From positions 1-46,215 of the forward strand of contig CACZJU010000021.1 in NCBI GenBank assembly GCA_902781515.1: 46,215 bases of DNA. Direction: 5' to 3'. Both the position numbers and the translations under genes were made by a program. This DNA comes from an uncultured Bacteroidales bacterium (GTDB lineage: Bacteria > Bacteroidota > Bacteroidia > Bacteroidales > Bacteroidaceae). Numbering within the stretch: position 1 is the stretch's first letter; each line of letters starts with the position of its first letter. Below, piece by piece: positions 3,180 through 39,753 of this stretch. The notes under the pieces were generated by a model. The model searched no databases and was not told the origin of the DNA. It saw only the letters and a program-made list of their open reading frames with translations.

Positions 3180-3188
3180 GTCCTGCGG

Positions 3189-3311
3189 ACAATGGATAAT
3201 TGACAATGGACAATTGATAATGATTGGGAGAGTCTGCAAAACTGCGGACTCTCTCTTTTATTTCCACAACGTCTATTTCATTGTCAATTTTCAATTATCA
3301 ATTTTCAATTT
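3189..3311. repeat. inverted short-repeat arms flanking the rpsA terminator
   Basis: Left of the terminator (3189-3222) are near-repeats of ACAATGGATAATTG and ACAATTGATAATG. Right of it (3278-3311) are their reverse-complement relatives, TTGTCAATTTTCAATT and ATCAATTTTCAATT. The period is about 7-8 bases. The same ATCAATTTTCAATT string recurs at 29455-29478, between the phosphatase-like gene and secA. Confidence 0.6.
3226..3260 (+). terminator. rpsA terminator
   Basis: Hairpin with stem GAGAGTC (3228-3234) paired to GACTCTC (3247-3253), extended inward by TGC/GCG, and followed by CTTTTATTT. It lies about 50 bases after the rpsA stop codon and works as a rho-independent terminator on the plus strand. 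Confidence 0.75.
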
Positions 3312-8519: not shown

Positions 8520-8526
8520 GTCAATA

Positions 8527-8563
8527 AATTAAAAATTAAAAATTAAAAATTGAAAATTATTTC
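8527..8563. repeat. short A/T tandem repeat between mazG and valS
   Basis: Near-perfect repeats of AATTAAAA with a period of about 8 bases, ending in ATTGAAAATTATTTC. The block sits just upstream of the valS -7 box and in the place of the -33 element of the mazG promoter. Confidence 0.65.
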
Positions 8564-8602: not shown

Positions 8603-8631
8603 CTATAACCTATAACCCATAACCTATAACC
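8603..8631. repeat. CTATAACC tandem repeat in the valS leader
   Basis: Four near-copies of CTATAACC (CTATAACCTATAACC, then CATAACCTATAACC) fill the leader just before the valS ATG at 8638. They would be transcribed as part of the 5' untranslated region. Confidence 0.7.
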
Positions 8632-8637
8632 ATTCAT

Positions 8638-11421
8638 ATGGAATTAGCAACAAAATACAACCCTGCCGATGTCGAAGGCAAGTGGTATCAGTATTGGTTA
8701 GACAATAAACTTTTCAGTTCCAAACCCGACGATCGCGAGCCATACACAATCGTCATTCCTCCACCAAACGTAACAGGTGTGCTGCACATGGGACATGTCC
8801 TCAATGAAACCATTCAGGACATCCTTGTTCGCCATGCCCGTATGGAAGGCAAGAATGCTTGCTGGGTGCCTGGTACAGACCATGCCTCCATTGCAACTGA
8901 GGCCAAGGTGGTAAACCGACTGGCTGAGCAAGGTATCAAGAAGACCGACCTCACACGCGAAGAGTTCCTGAAGCATGCTTGGGCTTGGACTGAGGAGCAC
9001 GGAGGCATTATCCTGAAACAGCTTCGTAAGCTCGGCTGTTCCTGCGACTGGGACCGCACGGCTTTCACTATGGACGAGAAGCGTAGCGAGAGTGTCATCA
9101 AGGTCTTCTGCGACCTATATCGCAAGGGCCTCATCTATCGTGGCGTACGAATGGTCAACTGGGATCCTAAGGCCCTGACCGCCCTATCCGACGAGGAAGT
9201 CATCTATAAGGAAGAGCACACCAAGCTCTACTACATGAAATACTATGTAGAAAGTCCTGTAACGAGTGATTGTATCGCTGGAGAAGGGAACGTAGTTCAC
9301 AAGGACGAGAAAGGCTACTATGCCGTAGTGGCAACTACACGTCCTGAAACCATTATGGGCGACGTGGCAATGTGCATCAACCCCAATGACCCCAAGAACC
9401 AGTGGTTGAAGGGCAAGAAAGTAATTGTGCCCCTCGTTGGTCGTGTCATTCCCGTCATTGAGGACGAATATGTGGACATTGAGTTTGGTACTGGTTGCTT
9501 GAAGGTTACTCCTGCCCACGATGTCAACGACTATATGCTGGGCGAGAAATACAATCTGGAAGCCATTGATGTATTCAATCCCGATGGTACTCTGTCAGAA
9601 GCTGCAAAGCTTTACGTTGGTATGGACCGTTTCGACTGCCGCAAGCAGATTTCTAAGGATATGGTTGAGGCCGGTCTGATGGAGAAGATAGAGGACTACG
9701 ACAATAAGATTGGTTGCTCGGAACGTACAGGTGCGCCCATCGAGCCACGTCTTTCTATGCAGTGGTTCCTGAAGATGGAGCATCTGGCAGAGATTGCCCT
9801 CGGTCCCGTTATGAACGATGATATCAAGTTCTATCCCGCAAAATACAAGAACACCTATCGCCACTGGCTCGAGAACATCAAGGACTGGTGCATCAGCCGT
9901 CAGTTGTGGTGGGGACATCGCATTCCTGCATATTATATAGGCCTCTCCCCAACCCTCCCCAAAGGGAAGGGAGAAACATCACCTTCATTGCAGGATTTAG
10001 GCATTCCCTACGGTGCCTTTGTAGTAGCAGAAAGTGAAGAAAAAGCCTATAAACTGGCTGTTGAGCAATATCCCGCTCTTAAAACCCTCCTCCCTTCGGG
10101 GGGAGATGGAGAGGGGCTTGGCTTCATACTGAAGCAGGACGAGGATGCTCTGGACACTTGGTTCAGCAGTTGGCTCTGGCCTATCTCGCTGTTCGACGGC
10201 ATTAACAATCCAGGCAACGAAGAGATAAAGTACTACTACCCCACTGCCGACCTCGTAACCGGTCCGGACATCATCTTCTTCTGGGTAGCCCGCATGATTA
10301 TGGCAGGCTACGAATATGAAGGCAAGATGCCCTTCCGCAATGTTTACTTCACTGGTATCGTGCGCGACAAACTGGGCCGCAAGATGTCTAAGTCGCTGGG
10401 CAACAGTCCCGACCCTCTGGACCTCATTGCCCGCTTCGGTGCTGACGGTGTGCGTATGGGTATGATGCTGGCAGCTCCTGCCGGCAACGACATACTCTTC
10501 GACGAGGCTCTCTGCGAACAGGGACGCAACTTCTGCAATAAAATTTGGAATGCCTTCCGTCTGGTAAAGGGCTGGGAAGTTTCCGAGAGCGCTAAGTTCC
10601 CTGAGATTAACGCCAATGCCATTGCATGGATGCAGGCCAAGATACGCGAGACAGGAGCCGAGATAGAGGATTCATTCTCGAAATATCGCCTCTCTGAAGC
10701 CCTTATGGCAGCCTTCAAGCTGTTCACCGACGAGTTCTCCGGCTGGTATCTCGAAATGATTAAGCCTGCATATCAGCAGCCCATCGACAGCCAGACCTTG
10801 AAGGCCACGCTCGACATCTTCGAAACGCTGATGAAGATTATCCACCCCTTCATGCCGTTCATCACAGAAGAACTCTTCCAAGCCCTTGCAGAACGCGAAC
10901 AGGGCGACAGCATAATGGTGAACCCGCTTAAACTTGATGTTCTGAACGAAGAGGACACTCAGATTATTTCTGCATACGAGGAGGCGAAGCAAATTATCAG
11001 CAACGTGCGTGCCGTTCGCAATCAGAAGAACATCGCACAGAAGGAAGCACTCGTGCTGGAAGCCATCGGCAAGCCCGAAGGTTCATTGCCTCTGTCCGAA
11101 ACCATCAAGAAGATGGCCAACCTCTCTGCTATCAAATACGTGGAGAAGAAGGGCGAAGGCTCGCAAAGCTTCTTGGTAGGAACCGATGAGTATGCTGTGC
11201 CTCTGGGAAGCCTCATTGACACCGATGCTGAGGCAGAGAAGGCTGAAGCTGAAATCAAGCGTTTGGAAGGCTTCATGGCAGGCATTCAGAAGAAACTTTC
11301 CAACGAACGCTTCGTACAGAACGCTCCTGCACAGGTTGTAGAGCTTGAGCGCAAGAAGCTAAGCGACGCAGAAAGCAAGATTGCAGCTCTGCGTGAAACG
11401 CTGAAAGCTCTGGGCAAATAA
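8638..11421 (+). CDS. valS: valyl-tRNA synthetase with two in-frame palindromic insertions
   Basis: Charges tRNA-Val with valine. The 927 residues show the class I signature HMGH at 50-53, the editing-domain phrase [33 protein letters not shown] and the KMSKS loop at 582-586, then the anticodon-binding and C-terminal coiled-coil parts. Bacterial ValRS of this group is, to my knowledge, around 875-880 residues, so about 50 are extra. They coincide with two GC-rich palindromic DNA elements (9940-9973 and 10084-10121), which add [12 protein letters not shown] and [12 protein letters not shown] around a diverged stretch just before [12 protein letters not shown]. The frame stays open and every catalytic motif remains, so the enzyme is probably active. 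Followed by its own terminator. Confidence 0.97.
9940..9973. repeat. GC-rich palindromic element inside valS, copy 1
   Basis: GGCCTCTCCCC, then AACCCTCCCC, then AAAGGGAAGGGAGA. The second half forms a hairpin, CCCTCCCC with AAGGGAAGGG. It is translated as [12 protein letters not shown]. It belongs to the same family as copy 2 at 10084-10121, which is in the opposite orientation. Confidence 0.75.
10084..10121. repeat. GC-rich palindromic element inside valS, copy 2 (inverted)
   Basis: ACCCTCCTCCCTTCGGG, then GGGAGATGGAGAGGGGC. Its reverse complement reads GCCCCTCTCCATCTCC, then CCCCGAAGGGAGGAGGG, close to copy 1. The hairpin is CTCCCTTCGGGGGGAG. It is translated as [12 protein letters not shown]. 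Copies 1 and 2 therefore flank 110 bases of valS as an inverted pair. Confidence 0.75.
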
Positions 11422-11446: not shown

Positions 11447-11490
11447 AATACCCCTCTGCGCCTAATCGCTGCAGGGGGGTATTCTTATAT
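11447..11490 (+). terminator. valS terminator
   Basis: AATACCCCTCTGC (11447-11459) pairs with GCAGGGGGGTATT (11471-11483) over 13 pairs, one of them a G-U wobble, followed by CTTATAT. It lies 25 bases after the valS stop. Confidence 0.75.
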
Positions 11491-11494
11491 CTAT

Positions 11495-11678
11495 CTTCAG
11501 AGGTTAACTTAACCTGTGGCGATAGGTTAATATAACCTTTGGCGATAGGTTAATATAACTTATGGCGATAGGTTAATATAACCTTTGGCGAAACATTAGT
11601 AATGTATGGGGCGAAACATTAGTAATGTATGGGGCGGAAGATTACTAATGTATAGGGCGGAAGATTAGTAATGCTTGA
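11495..11678. repeat. 23-base-period dyad array 1
   Basis: Eight consecutive units, each exactly 23 bases: starts at 11495, 11518, 11541, 11564, 11587, 11610, 11633 and 11656. The first four (type A) centre on GTTAACTTAACC or GTTAATATAACC and continue TTTGGCGATAG. The next four (type B) centre on ACATTAGTAATGT, GATTACTAATGT or GATTAGTAATGC and share a GGCGAA or GGCGGAAG start. Each core is itself close to a palindrome, although the cores differ between units. The array starts right after the valS terminator and ends about 20 bases before the convergent terminator. No open frame explains it, since 23 is not a multiple of 3. Confidence 0.85.
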
Positions 11679-11697
11679 GGCGAAGGGATATAACAAA

Positions 11698-34394: not shown

Positions 34395-35093
34395 ATGAGA
34401 GAAGAAAGTACATACGGAGATCGAGGAGTGGGAAGTCTTAGATGGCTTTCCCTTTTTCTCATTATCTCATTATCTCAATTTCTCATTTTATCATGTGAGG
34501 ATGAACGTGACAATACGGCAGCAGCGATAGGAGAAAACGACTCAACCGCATTCATGCGTTCGCGAGGCATAAGTTCACTCATCTCGGACTCAGGAATATT
34601 GCGTTACAAGCTTGTAGCCGAGGAGTGGGACATATACACCCATACAAACCCGCCAACGTGGAAATTCATGAAAGGAATGCTAATGGAACGCTTTGATGAA
34701 TCATTCCATATCGACCTGCACGTACAGGCAGATACGGCATACCTTCACGAGCAGCGAACATGGGAATTGCGCGGACGAGTTGTAATCCGAAATATTGAGG
34801 GCACTCTGTTCCGTACAGAGGAACTCTTCTGGGATATGAACCAGCATGAGATGTGGAGTACAAAATACATGCGTATCAAGACCACCGACCAAGAGCTTGA
34901 AGGTACAGATTTCCGTTCCAACGAACAAATGACCGACTACTATGTATCGAACTCCGTTGGAGCATTTCCTGTTAGTGATGTTGATGGCAACAAGAACGAA
35001 GAAGCACCCAAAGATACGGCTGCTGCAGTAGCTGCCACTGAGGCTGCAAATGAAAAGCCACAACGTGCTATGCCTTCGGCACAAAAGAAGTAA
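34395..35093 (+). CDS. lptC: LPS export protein LptC
   Basis: 232 residues. The N-terminus has a membrane anchor or lipoprotein-like signal (FLILSC), encoded partly by an 8-base tandem repeat (34457-34488). The OstA-like beta-jellyroll domain lies at about 60-180: SDSGILRYKLVAEEWDIYTH, then ADTAYLHEQRTWELRGRVVI and LFRTEELFWDMNQHEMWSTK, the strand pattern of LptC. LptC receives LPS from the LptBFG pump and passes it to LptA. The C-terminal tail is Ala/Glu-rich. The start follows the barrel gene by one base. The next gene begins 42 bases later. Confidence 0.85.
   Translation: MREESTYGDRGVGSLRWLSLFLIISLSQFLILSCEDERDNTAAAIGENDSTAFMRSRGISSLISDSGILRYKLVAEEWDIYTHTNPPTWKFMKGMLMERFDESFHIDLHVQADTAYLHEQRTWELRGRVVIRNIEGTLFRTEELFWDMNQHEMWSTKYMRIKTTDQELEGTDFRSNEQMTDYYVSNSVGAFPVSDVDGNKNEEAPKDTAAAVAATEAANEKPQRAMPSAQKK
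34457..34488. repeat. 8-base tandem repeat in the lptC signal region
   Basis: Four consecutive 8-base units: TCTCATTA, TCTCATTA, TCTCAATT, TCTCATTT. They encode part of the hydrophobic signal or anchor. Eight is not a multiple of 3, so gain or loss of one unit would shift the frame. Confidence 0.75.
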
Positions 35094-36407: not shown

Positions 36408-36419
36408 ATAAGTAATATT

Positions 36420-36462
36420 TCGCATTTCGTATTTCGTAATTCGTAATTATTTTGTATCTTTG
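36420..36462 (+). promoter_or_regulatory. promoter module of the PpiD-like gene
   Basis: A short tandem repeat (ATTTCGTATTTCGTAATTCG, continuing GTAATT, period 7-8 bases) is followed by AATTATTTTG and the -7 box TATCTTTG (36455-36462). The same join, repeat block, AATTATTTCG and TATCTTTG, stands before valS at 8527-8572. No clear TTTG at -33. Confidence 0.6.
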
Positions 36463-36510
36463 CGCCCGATTGCTGAAAAAGAAATAACAAACAAAACAAT
36501 AAATAATAAA

Positions 36511-38670
36511 ATGGCAACACTACAAAAAATCAGAAGCAAAGGCACGGCCCTCATTCTCATTCTGGGTCTTGCACTGTTTGCATTCATTGCCGAAGAGTTG
36601 GTTCGCGCCCTCTCTTCAAACCGTAATGCCAACCGTCAGACTATCGGTCAGGTTTACGGTAACGATGTTAACTATCAGGAATACAACGAACTGATAGACG
36701 AATACGAGAACGCTGTAAAGCTGGGCAACGGCGGTCAGAACCTGACCGAAGCTCAGAACATTCAGTTGCGTGATCAGGTGTGGAATGATTTCCTGCGCCA
36801 GCAGATTATCGAGCACGAGGCTAAGGCTCTTGGTCTGACGGTTACTGATGCTGAGTTGCAGAACATCATCAACACCGGTTCAAGCCAGTTGCTGCGTCAG
36901 ACTCCGTTCGTCAACCAACAGACAGGTATGTTCGACGTCAACCAGTTGAAGCAGTTCCTCACTAACTACGAGGAGATTCAGAACAATCCCGAGTACCCCG
37001 AGGCACAGAAAGAGACTCTGAACAGCTACTATCGCTATTGGAAGTTCGTTGAAAAGCAGGTACGCGACGAGGCTCTGGCACAGAAGTACCAGACTCTGCT
37101 TGGCGCTTGCATGATTTCTAACCCCGTTAGCGCAAAGGCCGCCTTCGAAGCTCGCAACAACGAGACCAGCATCCTGCTGGCAAGCGTACCCTACACCTCA
37201 GTGAAGGACACTGATGTTGAGCCCACTGAGGCTGAACTGAAGGCCAAGTACGATGAGATGAGCAAGCAGTATCCCGATATGTTCGACATGCTGACCGAGG
37301 CTCGCGACATCAAGTACATCGTGGTTCCCGTTACCGCCAGCGATGCCGACAAGAAGGCCCTGACTGCCGAGCTCGAGGAATATAAGGCTGCTCTGGACAG
37401 CAGTGCAAACATCGCCAACACAGTTCGTGAGAGCCGTTCTTCAATCAGCTATAATGGTGTACCAGTTAGCCGCAAGTCTCTGCCTACCGACATCGCAGCA
37501 CTGCTCGACAGCATTGCTGTTGGTACAACTACAGCTCCTGCAACTAACGCAGCCGACAACACCATGAACGTTGTCAAGTACATCGCAAAGGTACAGCAGC
37601 CCGACTCTGTTGAGTATCGTGTTATATCTGTAGCTGGCAACGACGATAAGGCTAAGAAGAGCGCAGACAGTATTTACAATGCTCTGCTTGCAGGTGCTCC
37701 CATCGACACTATTGCCAAGCAATACAATCAGCCCGCTGCTGCACAGTGGATTACATCTGCACAGGTTGATGGCAGCAGTCTGCGTGACGACGATAAGAAG
37801 TTCGTAGAAACTCTGTTCAACACTCCCGCTGGTAGCGTCAAGAAGCTTGACCTCGCCAACGCCAGCATCATCGTAAAGGTTACAGACCGTCGCAACATCA
37901 TCGACAAGTACGACGTAGCCATTATCAAGCGCCCCATCGACTTCAGCGAGGAGACACACAATAACGTATGGAACAAGTTCAGCTCGTTCCTGGCTGCCAA
38001 TCCCAAGCAGGAGGACATCGAAGCTAATGCTGACAAGGAAGGCTACATGGTGCAGAGTGCACGCTATATCGGCTCTGGCGACCACTATATTGCTAATGTC
38101 CCCGGTACTACAGACGCTCTGCGTTGGACCTTCAAGAGCAAAGTTGGCGACGTGAGTGAGCTCTATGAGGCAGGCAATGCCAACGACCAACTGCTGGTAG
38201 TGATGGTTACAGCCATCCATAAGAAGGGTATGCGCGACTTTAAGGATGAATACCTGCAGCAGACTCTACGCGACGAGGTTCTGAAGGACAAGAAAGCTGC
38301 CATCCTCACTGAGAAGATGCAGGCAATGAAGAGCGTAGCCGAGGTAGCAAAGATGGCAGAGGCCAAGCAAGATACCATCAGCCACATCACCTTCGCTAAT
38401 CCTGTTTACATCGCAGGTATGGCAAGCGAACCCACACTTAGTGGTGCTGCCACAGCTGCCCAGAAGGGTCAGTTCGTAAACGCTATCAAGGGCGAGGCTG
38501 GTGTATATGCCTTCCAAGTACTGGCAAAGAACAAGCTCGAAGGTAAGTTCGACCAGAAGCAGGAGCAGGCACAGCAGGCCAGCATGAATATGCGTAGCGC
38601 AAACGGCTTCATGCAAGCTTTGGTTCGCAAGGCCAACATTGTTGACGACCGCTATAAGTTCTACCAGTAA
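36511..38670 (+). CDS. peptidyl-prolyl isomerase of the SurA/PpiD type
   Basis: 719 residues anchored by an N-terminal membrane segment (residues 12-28, ALILILGLALFAFIAEE). A SurA_N-like helical part follows (DVNYQEYNELIDEYENAVK, then NIQLRDQVWNDFLRQQIIEHE), and then parvulin-like PPIase parts in the centre and C-terminal half (PAGSVKKLDLANASIIVKVTD). It helps fold outer-membrane proteins in the periplasm, like E. coli PpiD. The start is ATG 36511, following the A-rich leader; the frame upstream holds the promoter and begins with TTG. Together with SecA, LptC and Lnb-like genes it makes an envelope-biogenesis neighbourhood. It ends at a strong terminator. Confidence 0.9.
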   Translation: MATLQKIRSKGTALILILGLALFAFIAEELVRALSSNRNANRQTIGQVYGNDVNYQEYNELIDEYENAVKLGNGGQNLTEAQNIQLRDQVWNDFLRQQIIEHEAKALGLTVTDAELQNIINTGSSQLLRQTPFVNQQTGMFDVNQLKQFLTNYEEIQNNPEYPEAQKETLNSYYRYWKFVEKQVRDEALAQKYQTLLGACMISNPVSAKAAFEARNNETSILLASVPYTSVKDTDVEPTEAELKAKYDEMSKQYPDMFDMLTEARDIKYIVVPVTASDADKKALTAELEEYKAALDSSANIANTVRESRSSISYNGVPVSRKSLPTDIAALLDSIAVGTTTAPATNAADNTMNVVKYIAKVQQPDSVEYRVISVAGNDDKAKKSADSIYNALLAGAPIDTIAKQYNQPAAAQWITSAQVDGSSLRDDDKKFVETLFNTPAGSVKKLDLANASIIVKVTDRRNIIDKYDVAIIKRPIDFSEETHNNVWNKFSSFLAANPKQEDIEANADKEGYMVQSARYIGSGDHYIANVPGTTDALRWTFKSKVGDVSELYEAGNANDQLLVVMVTAIHKKGMRDFKDEYLQQTLRDEVLKDKKAAILTEKMQAMKSVAEVAKMAEAKQDTISHITFANPVYIAGMASEPTLSGAATAAQKGQFVNAIKGEAGVYAFQVLAKNKLEGKFDQKQEQAQQASMNMRSANGFMQALVRKANIVDDRYKFYQ

Positions 38671-38692: not shown

Positions 38693-38726
38693 GCGCGAGG
38701 TCCATCCGGGTCTCGCGCTTTTTTTC
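38693..38726 (+). terminator. terminator of the PpiD-like gene
   Basis: GCGCGAG (38693-38699) pairs with CTCGCGC (38712-38718), followed by eight T's: a classic rho-independent terminator, 22 bases after the stop codon. Array 2 starts just 2 bases after the T run. Confidence 0.88.
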
Positions 38727-38728
38727 TC

Positions 38729-39008
38729 CACTCCTATGAGCGCCGAGAACCTCACTATTAGAGTATCAGGATTCTCACTAATAATGAACAATTCGCCTCA
38801 CTACTAATGAACAGGGGTTGTTCACTAATAGTCAGCAAGAACGCTCACTAATAATGAGGAAGACGGCAGACTAATAATGTGACATACGGAACTCCTATAG
38901 TGAGACATCTGGCAGTCTAATAGTCTAACCGGCTACGAACTAATAGTTAACTTAACCTATGCCCATAAGTTAAGTTAACCTACAGGTGTAAGTTATAGAA
39001 CCTTTGCC
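38729..39008. repeat. 23-base-period dyad array 2
   Basis: About twelve units in a row. The recurring core CACTAATAATGA or its variants starts at 38729, 38753, 38776, 38799, 38823, 38846, 38869, 38892, 38915 and 38938. The spacing is 23 bases except for two steps of 24. The last part changes to type A cores: GTTAACTTAACC at 38946, GTTAAGTTAACC at 38969 and GTTATAGAACC at 38992, again 23 apart. The type A text TATGCCCATAA after the core resembles TGTGGCGATAG in array 1. The order of types is opposite to array 1 (B then A). It lies between the PpiD-like terminator and the DUF4160 promoter. Confidence 0.85.
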
Positions 39009-39130: not shown

Positions 39131-39433
39131 ATGCCAAAGATATTTGAATACTTCGGATTCATATTCTTTTTCTACTCCAACGAGCACGAACCAATTCATG
39201 TGCACGTAACACATGGGGGATGCCAGAGCATCTTCGAACTGATTATGTTGAATGGTGAACTCGTGGAAATAAGGGTAAGGGAAAAGGATGGCGAGGAGCC
39301 TCTATCAAGCAAAGACAAGAAGACAGCCGAAGCATTCATCAGGAAATATCAGAAGAATATCATTTCAAAGTGGGTTCGGTTCTTTGTGATGAAACAGGTA
39401 GTTAGAAGTACAAACATACGAAAAAAGCTGTAA
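39131..39433 (+). CDS. DUF4160 domain protein
   Basis: 100 residues. The N-terminal phrase IFEYFGFIFFFYSNEHEPIH followed by VHV and a His-rich strand is the signature of DUF4160, a small family found next to DUF2442 and predicted toxin-antitoxin genes. Residues 65-100 are basic and helical. It ends two bases before the DUF2442 start. Biochemical activity is unknown; a role as one half of a toxin-antitoxin-like pair is an inference from partner genes, not seen in the sequence. Residues DGEEPLSSKDKKTAEAFI mark the usual C-terminal half. Confidence 0.85.
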   Translation: MPKIFEYFGFIFFFYSNEHEPIHVHVTHGGCQSIFELIMLNGELVEIRVREKDGEEPLSSKDKKTAEAFIRKYQKNIISKWVRFFVMKQVVRSTNIRKKL

Positions 39434-39435
39434 CG

Positions 39436-39753
39436 ATGGGACGCTTGTATATTACAGATGCAACGAATGCCGGCAACTTATCGGTAAGTCTTCAGTTTAG
39501 CGACAATACCTCGCAGACGGTAGATATCGGTGAGTATATCCGTCGTCATCCCCATCCCCAGTACAACAAATACCTCGATGAAAAGAAATTCCGCCAGTTC
39601 AAACTCGAGAATGGAAACATTGTATGGGGTAAGAACTGGGATTTGATATTCCCAATCGAGCAACTGCATTCAGGTAGCGTAATTAATAATCGTGTTGTAA
39701 ATTATTCCATATCGGAAAACGCAACCCCTTGCATAGCCGAGGATGTTCAATAA
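39436..39753 (+). CDS. DUF2442 domain protein
   Basis: 105 residues. The DUF2442 core is visible: LSVSLQFSDNTSQTVDIGEY, then the DEKKFRQFKLENGNIVWGKN segment, then WDLIFPIEQL. The family is small and often paired with DUF4160, as here, with the start two bases after the partner's stop. A role as partner or antitoxin is suggested by that pairing. The gene carries no DNA-binding motif that I can recognise. Confidence 0.87.
   Translation: MGRLYITDATNAGNLSVSLQFSDNTSQTVDIGEYIRRHPHPQYNKYLDEKKFRQFKLENGNIVWGKNWDLIFPIEQLHSGSVINNRVVNYSISENATPCIAEDVQ

Follow-up and report, generated by a model that had tools for sequence, protein, structure and literature searches.

A high-copy family of extragenic palindromic arrays with a 22/23-bp frame in an uncultured Bacteroidales bacterium

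Introduction

The window, by which we mean the whole 46,215-nucleotide stretch of DNA that was analysed (contig 21 of a 2.46 Mb assembly, 86% complete), contains a repetitive segment at 38729-39008. This locus raises the question of whether its apparent 23-base period is real, what the repeating unit is, and whether the array stands alone or belongs to a dispersed family. The best explanation of the data presented here is that it (array 2) is a member of a chromosomal family of tandem palindromes located outside and 3' of genes.

Results

Two tandem palindrome arrays in the window

The 23-base period put forward in the original prediction is real. Autocorrelation of 38729-39008 gave a lag-23 self-identity of 0.525, compared with a mean of 0.261 (sd 0.027) for dinucleotide shuffles; none of 1000 shuffles reached the observed value at lag 23, and none did so at any lag of 5-59. 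The final block alone (38930-39008) was weaker, its lag-23 value being reached by 1 of 1000 shuffles and, at some lag of 5-59, by 130 of 1000. The features of the locus are as follows.

36460..38670, + strand: SurA/PpiD-like peptidyl-prolyl isomerase gene, upstream of array 2 (Pfam SurA_N_2, 1.1e-37; Rotamase_3, 1e-05)
38693..38726 (about), + strand: terminator-like hairpin with T-run, upstream of array 2 (read from the sequence)
38752..39003, unstranded: array 2, two abutting blocks with approximately 11 tandem units of 22-24 bp in all (autocorrelation, dyad centres)
38774..38950, unstranded: CTAATA block of odd, imperfect palindromes (TCACTAATAATGA, AACTAATAGTT and similar; dyad centres)
38944..39003, unstranded: GTTA block, which fits 15+8+15+8+14
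38944-38958: GTTA block palindrome 1, TAGTTAACTTAACCT, then spacer ATGCCCAT
38967-38981: GTTA block palindrome 2, AAGTTAAGTTAACCT, then spacer ACAGGTGT
38990-39003: GTTA block palindrome 3, AAGTTATAGAACCT
39131..39433, + strand: DUF4160 protein gene, downstream of array 2 (Pfam, 9.5e-13)

About 11 units of 23 bp fit, rather than the twelve or so first counted, and array 2 does not form the single register that had been assumed, because the dyad phases of its two abutting blocks differ by 8. The dyad centres of the CTAATA block lie at 38781, 38804, 38828, 38851, 38874, 38897, 38920 and 38943, with a poor unit at 38897 and a +1 shift at 38828, and those of the GTTA block at 38951, 38974 and 38996.5. 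The phase jumps where AACTAATAGTT and GTTAACTTAAC overlap. The three GTTA cores do begin at 38946, 38969 and 38992, as read from the sequence. At least 5 of 7 pairs were found at 10 of the 12 proposed centres versus 1.5% of random centres, a comparison biased towards the former, which were chosen by eye. As had been stated, array 2 comes after a terminator-like hairpin; a similar hairpin is also present 3' of the orthologous gene in three relatives' loci (L061, L066 and L070). Downstream, the DUF4160 gene is directly followed by a 105-aa ORF with no Pfam match, and the two (39131-39753) look like a small two-gene operon.

The other array of the window has a comparable setting.

8638..11421, + strand: ValS, a class I tRNA synthetase with a valyl-type C-terminal arm, before array 1 (Pfam)
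11450..11485, + strand: terminator-like hairpin before array 1 (read from the sequence)
11501..11683, unstranded: array 1, 8 units of 23 bp (lag-23 identity, TRF, dyads)

Array 1 comprises four units of the GGTTAA..TTAACC type and four of the CATTA-G-TAATG type, with spacers from GTGGCGAT to GAGGCGAA. Its lag-23 identity was 0.814, a value reached by 0 of 1000 dinucleotide shuffles, and all 8 units showed 5-7 of 7 dyad pairs when the centre was allowed to move by 1. GTTAACTTAACC is common to both arrays, in agreement with the original prediction. The arrays do not share the same two core types, as the first cores of array 2 (TCACTAATAATGA) differ from the second type of array 1 (ACATTAGTAATGT). 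The reversed type order, which had suggested an inversion, is unreadable from the cores, because the units are palindromes and give no orientation; core order also differs, by eye, among the arrays inspected, and the inversion is not supported. Separate tandem repeats of 7 and 8 bp are common between the genes of the window (3187-3222, 8526-8559, 8603-8631, 34454-34494 and 36416-36448) and also appear at lag 14 in the own-genome stretches.

Dispersal and genomic location

Searches of the window's own genome with the two arrays returned 28 and 76 matches. The sample comprised 53 stretches, namely 44 around matches, 8 blind stretches and the window. Period detection, with arrays of short-period self-similarity (lag 7 at or above 0.45) excluded, identified 62 arrays in 48 of the 53 stretches, window included. 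Six of them fell in the 155.5 kb of blind stretches (L054 twice, L055 twice, L057 and L059), which extrapolates to about 95 arrays per genome; arrays occupied 455 bp of this blind sequence, approximately 0.3%. When segments were counted by lag, with any self-similarity at lags 1-11 excluded, 33 were found at lag 22, 51 at lag 23 and at most 2 at each other lag of 13-35. The core RGGTTANNNTAACCY occurs at 48 places in the genome (control, 0). A lone core beside a regulator was considered and rejected: by eye, of seven RGGTTANNNTAACCY loci inspected outside the array set, six look array-like and one (L208) looks coding.

None of the 62 arrays lay inside an ORF of at least 100 aa. Divergent gaps were avoided (4 of 46 array-bearing gaps versus 27 of 84 other gaps, P = 0.0025), and convergent gaps made up 15 of 46 versus 15 of 84 (P = 0.08). 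The proposal of a dispersed family in intergenic space is thus borne out, with arrays mostly at the 3' ends of genes. Placement after terminators is supported in part: a terminator-like site was present within about 150 bp of 24 of the 62 arrays, with the T-run towards the array in 19, according to a crude detector that missed the hairpin of array 2 itself, probably owing to its long loop. Such sites were held by 25 of 46 array gaps versus 22 of 83 other gaps, the gaps being unmatched for length.

Several further features accompany individual arrays. Seven lie within about 1.6 kb of contig ends of the assembly (L011, L017, L026, L027, L030, L032 and L051), as though the assembly tends to break at arrays or at their neighbours. 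The flank TTTTCAGGCAAAACAGAT marks one end of the arrays in L017, L020, L026 and L033, and variants of it occur in L032, L034, L035, L044, L047 and L054. A longer shared intergenic block with AAGCAAACCTCACCGCCTCCAGC adjoins some arrays, e.g., in L017, L020, L039, L042 and L054. By eye, hairpin-like inserts of approximately 50 bp seem to lie within array palindromes at L020:3560-4400 and L032:3850-4123 (reverse), and a similar array context without the insert is found in L034 and L044.

A gene tracking with the arrays, which had been envisaged, was not found locally: among 478 ORFs of at least 70 aa in the 53 stretches, the largest similarity cluster had 5 members in 4 stretches. Array 1 had no match in phages or plasmids, array 2 had none in phages, and one exact array pattern had none in viral contigs.

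Architecture of the unit

The unit is best described as a 7-(0/1)-7 palindrome plus an 8-bp spacer. Because each unit consists of two 7-bp arms, 0 or 1 central base and an 8-bp spacer, even palindromes tend to a 22-bp repeat and odd ones to 23. Distances were measured between palindromes with arms of 7 (one mismatch allowed), and repeat similarity was not used. Among pairs of centres within 20-25 bp, 48 of 60 odd-odd pairs were 23 apart, 13 of 33 even-even pairs were 22 apart and 25 of 57 mixed pairs were 22.5 apart. A palindrome-only detector also peaked at a spacing of 22-23 in the 53 stretches (18 chains, score of at least 18) and in 72 loci of relatives (3 chains). The 8 blind stretches alone gave no peak, with one chain each at 22-23, 21-22 and 19-20 at a score of at least 14.

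When 249 units of 47 arrays were folded about their dyads, arm pairing was 0.74-0.93 at positions 2-7. At position 1 it was 0.56 (odd) and 0.70 (even), and at position 8 it was 0.37 and 0.32, respectively. Pairing rose again at position 9 (0.46 odd, 0.56 even), which is not chance-like and counts against reading the units as dimer sites. The pairing counts, as well as those of covariation, G.T/A.C mismatches, edges and spacer orientation, omit 15 of the 62 arrays (parsed path below 5), including 5 of the 6 blind ones. Several Watson-Crick pair types occurred at every arm position (113 distinct cores, either strand). The arm match was 5.23 of 7 over 134 distinct cores and 2.81 when right arms were shuffled (0 of 1000 reached the observed value). 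Among the 33 GTT-type cores it was 5.48 versus 5.01 (0 of 1000), and for the 22 CATTA-type cores covariation was no higher than in shuffles (582 of 1000). Where neighbouring left arms differed by at least 3 of 7, the right arm was the better match to its own left arm at 53 of 71 transitions and to that of the next unit at 9, with 9 ties, although the phase parse selects the better-pairing phase and so favours the palindrome in this comparison. A hairpin across the spacer as the true unit is disfavoured by the same 53 to 9. Pairing of the central pair exceeds what a free loop would require, which leans towards double-stranded recognition, although the units are related by descent.

The mismatches within the palindromes of the 47 arrays were 63 G.T and 64 A.C, with a per-array skew that exceeds the binomial (3 of 5000), tandem copies not being independent. 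The counts of spacer orientations with and against the gene direction were 5 and 4 in ++ gaps, and 3 and 4 in -- gaps; the split was 13:6 with 2 ties in convergent gaps. Mismatch types and tandem-gap spacer orientation gave no sign of mRNA hairpins. Double-stranded use fits the near-equal numbers of G.T and A.C and the lack of any tie between spacer orientation and gene direction where gaps are tandem.

The spacers of this genome and of two relatives, G005 and G052, are TTGGCNAT-like, although the cores are unlike. The own-genome consensus was nTGgcnAT, with a mean match of 4.52 of 8 versus 2.54 (sd 0.07) for shuffled spacers, the strand being chosen by the match itself. When spacers were oriented by the arms instead of the motif, the commonest was TTGGCAAT in G052 (22 of 63) and TTGGYCA in G005 (9 of 44, the eighth base T being fixed by the search pattern). 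In single arrays of 13 other loci, no spacer motif was clearly above permuted targets (best, 9 of 100).

Arrays in related genomes

One window protein matched 14 named loci at 45-76% identity, all from Prevotellaceae, Bacteroidaceae or Bacteroidales assemblies. These loci (L061-L074, genus membership unverified) and 60 from genomes placed in the genus made up the 74 relatives' loci, with some relatives counted twice (the L061 array is that of L116, and the L063 array that of L119). They yielded 22 segments at lag 22, in 20 loci, and 2 segments at lag 23. The 26 loci from other genera of the family gave no segment at lag 22 or 23, and the 30 from other families a single one, at lag 22. Within the genus, arrays of lag 22/23 are common; few turned up in the loci sampled from outside. 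Array-like sequence was also seen at L148:2360-2442 (period 22, another family of the order) and at L198:2271-2353 (period 21, another genus of the family); with these two, the architecture may extend beyond the genus.

The cores differ by genome, with TGTGCCATTAATGGCACA in G046, CCCCTATAGGGG in G005, AGTACTATAGT in G045, CCGCNNGCGG in G052 and G027, and GTTCCACGCGTGGAAC in G038, among others. Even cores of the relatives mostly recur at 22 and odd ones (L070, G001) at 23. L061 and L070 have common flanks with a different core and parity, a pattern that would result if the core of an ancestral array had been replaced; the alignment across the SurA/PpiD-like gap covers L061, L066 and L070 only. 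The array 1 query matched 6 of 101 genomes, own included. The CCCTATAGGG array matched 2 of 14 genomes, G005 (81 matches) and G035 (16). The CCGC array matched 5 of 14, with at least 54 matches in G027 (40 of 240 first-look candidates scored), at least 50 in G052 (40 of 184 scored), 7 in G036, 2 in G005 and 1 in G008.

Lag-22/23 arrays were present in 18 of the 60 relatives' loci, and dyads of at least 5 of 7 pairs were measured in 7 of the 18, shuffled units sometimes also reaching 5-7 pairs. Outside this genome, palindromy is evident in certain species and faint in others. Such arrays were found behind the SurA/PpiD-like gene in 11 of 31 loci (excluding lag-21 matches, mostly in coding sequence) and behind valS in 7 of 29, with the lag 1-11 exclusion, which removes the L119 array. 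This position is not called conserved, because arrays prefer such gaps anyway. An open frame of at least 100 aa, possibly spurious, enclosed 3 of 20 G052 arrays and 0 of 21 G005 arrays; one array in each of these genomes was placed divergently (no control).

Discussion

The arrays form a genuine family, extragenic, palindromic and present in many copies, whose frame follows an unusual rule. The analysis shows their architecture, dispersal, location, arm covariation and few-species cores, with no sign of strand-dependent RNA use. From these we infer a binding protein, a dimer row and a role. As the most likely working reading, which we adopt tentatively, the arrays would be rows of dimeric protein sites on double-stranded DNA, i.e., REP/BIME-like docking arrays. 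Each 7-(0/1)-7 palindrome would be a putative double-stranded site for a homodimeric DNA-binding protein, and the 8-bp spacer, partly conserved in sequence, would hold adjacent dimers about two helical turns apart. The dimer row may assemble behind genes in a role like that of the REP/BIME clusters of E. coli, which have roles in topology, bridging or insulation. The restriction of cores to one or a few species would reflect changes in the protein or proteins that bind them. Weighing against this reading, no gene family tracks locally with the arrays, the blind stretches alone give no peak in palindrome spacing, the CATTA-type cores show no excess of arm covariation, the per-array mismatch skew exceeds the binomial, the convergent-gap spacers split 13:6, and dyads of at least 5 of 7 were measured in only 7 of 18 array loci outside this genome.

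The main rival is a selfish or neutral minisatellite with no function, which would grow by slippage, spread by inter-locus recombination and remain palindromic through hairpin template switching, in which one arm is copied over the other. This is possible, if less probable than docking arrays. In its favour, multi-unit blocks are, by eye, nearly unchanged between L026, L035 and L047; core copy number varies by species; inserts within palindromes are apparently tolerated (L020, L032); seven fetched arrays lie near contig ends; and the arrays sit where insertions harm least. Against it, such a process imposes no fixed spacing, but the 22/23 period reappears with unlike cores, arms of 7 and a spacer of 8 are kept across many own-genome cores, and three species with unlike cores have a similar spacer.

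It is unlikely that the arrays act as RNA elements, either as hairpins in tandem within 3' UTRs or as auxiliary terminators, and so stabilise transcripts or end them. Their location would suit this role, and the array regions fold better than shuffles (z of -3.6 and -6.5), which is expected of any palindrome array. At least 5 T in the first 8 outward bases were found at 14 of 40 edges in G052 (at least 5 A at 6) and 7 of 36 in G005 (A at 2), as in intrinsic terminator clusters, but at only 5 of 94 own-genome edges (A at 2); in some species the arrays may have come to serve as terminators. The equality of G.T and A.C and the indifference of tandem-gap spacers to gene direction argue against RNA, as do the terminator-like hairpins that already precede both window arrays. 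At Rfam gathering thresholds the window gave only 5 tRNAs, and 15 array loci gave no match.

If the arrays are docking sites, a wider but doubtful proposal can be made by analogy with animal recombination-hotspot motifs, which follow their zinc-finger protein. Genus-wide, a conserved TTGGCNAT-like spacer frame every 22/23 bp would persist while the palindromic docking sites turn over as whole families between species, driven by a putative fast-evolving DNA-binding protein. If this were true, each genome might carry one to two hundred arrays, which would make up a layer behind genes that organises or insulates the chromosome. The spatial rule (even 22, odd 23) recurs across species of the Prevotella-like genus while the unit sequence changes, and neither this genome nor many of its relatives gave a match to the transposase known from REP repeats. 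A spacing rule with no shared sequence motif points towards a protein complex that has yet to be described for such arrays. The few-species cores are ready baits for finding the binding protein, and the arrays may serve as assembly-break and strain-typing sites.

Comparison with known systems

BrickBuilt of Porphyromonas gingivalis is a minisatellite/MITE of tandem 23-nt units, intergenic, at 19 loci and 0.44% of the genome, as given in the portion of the source consulted (PMC4596501). It is quite improbable that the present arrays are, as has been proposed for BrickBuilt, a MITE that contains a minisatellite and is mobilised by an IS5-type transposase. The two share a tandem 23-nt unit without long spacers, intergenic and dispersed placement, a Bacteroidales host and a similar share of the genome (approximately 0.3% here), and TTTTCAGGCAAAACAGAT or close variants flank several arrays. 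By the same partial source (PMC4596501), BrickBuilt has one unit sequence, IS5-like terminal repeats, a leader and a tail, whereas the present arrays have many palindromic cores and 22/23 parity. In the BrickBuilt unit as quoted, dyad symmetry is no greater than chance; a 12-base part of this unit (AGAYCATARTATCCTCTCRTRTG) occurs once (L051:257) in the 531.8 kb of own stretches. The IS5-like terminal inverted repeats (GAGACCTTTGCA, up to 1 mismatch) were found once there and once in one shuffle, and shared flanks are absent, by eye, from many of the arrays inspected.

REP, BIME and REPIN elements with RAYT are likewise short extragenic palindromes in few-species families, often clustered (PMC3733652, in part). 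Mobilisation by a Y1 (RAYT) transposase is nevertheless very improbable, since PF01797 (Y1_Tnp) had 0 matches in the own genome (86% complete) and is likewise unmatched in a total of 39 of the 61 genus genomes; besides the own genome, these include the array-bearing G001, G005, G008, G036, G045, G046, G052 and G054. A 22-lag array does lie within about 1 kb at 2 of 4 Y1-gene loci examined. The arrays here also differ in their fixed 22/23 tandem frame. By eye, the cores inspected show no constant tag such as the GTAG or CGTC at the foot of REP stems.

CRISPR arrays resemble the present ones in having short palindromes at regular spacing. Their repeats are 24-48 bp long and their unique spacers of regular length (PMC3733652, in part), whereas here the palindromes are 14-15 bp, the units degenerate and the 8-bp spacers related and partly conserved, with about a hundred arrays per genome by extrapolation.

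Among the papers listed from the open-licence PMC literature, judged by title and start of the abstract, the family was not recognised, BrickBuilt apart. Membership in REP/BIME or BrickBuilt fails on several of the features tested, and the closest published object found is BrickBuilt of Porphyromonas gingivalis, as far as the partial source describes it (PMC4596501).
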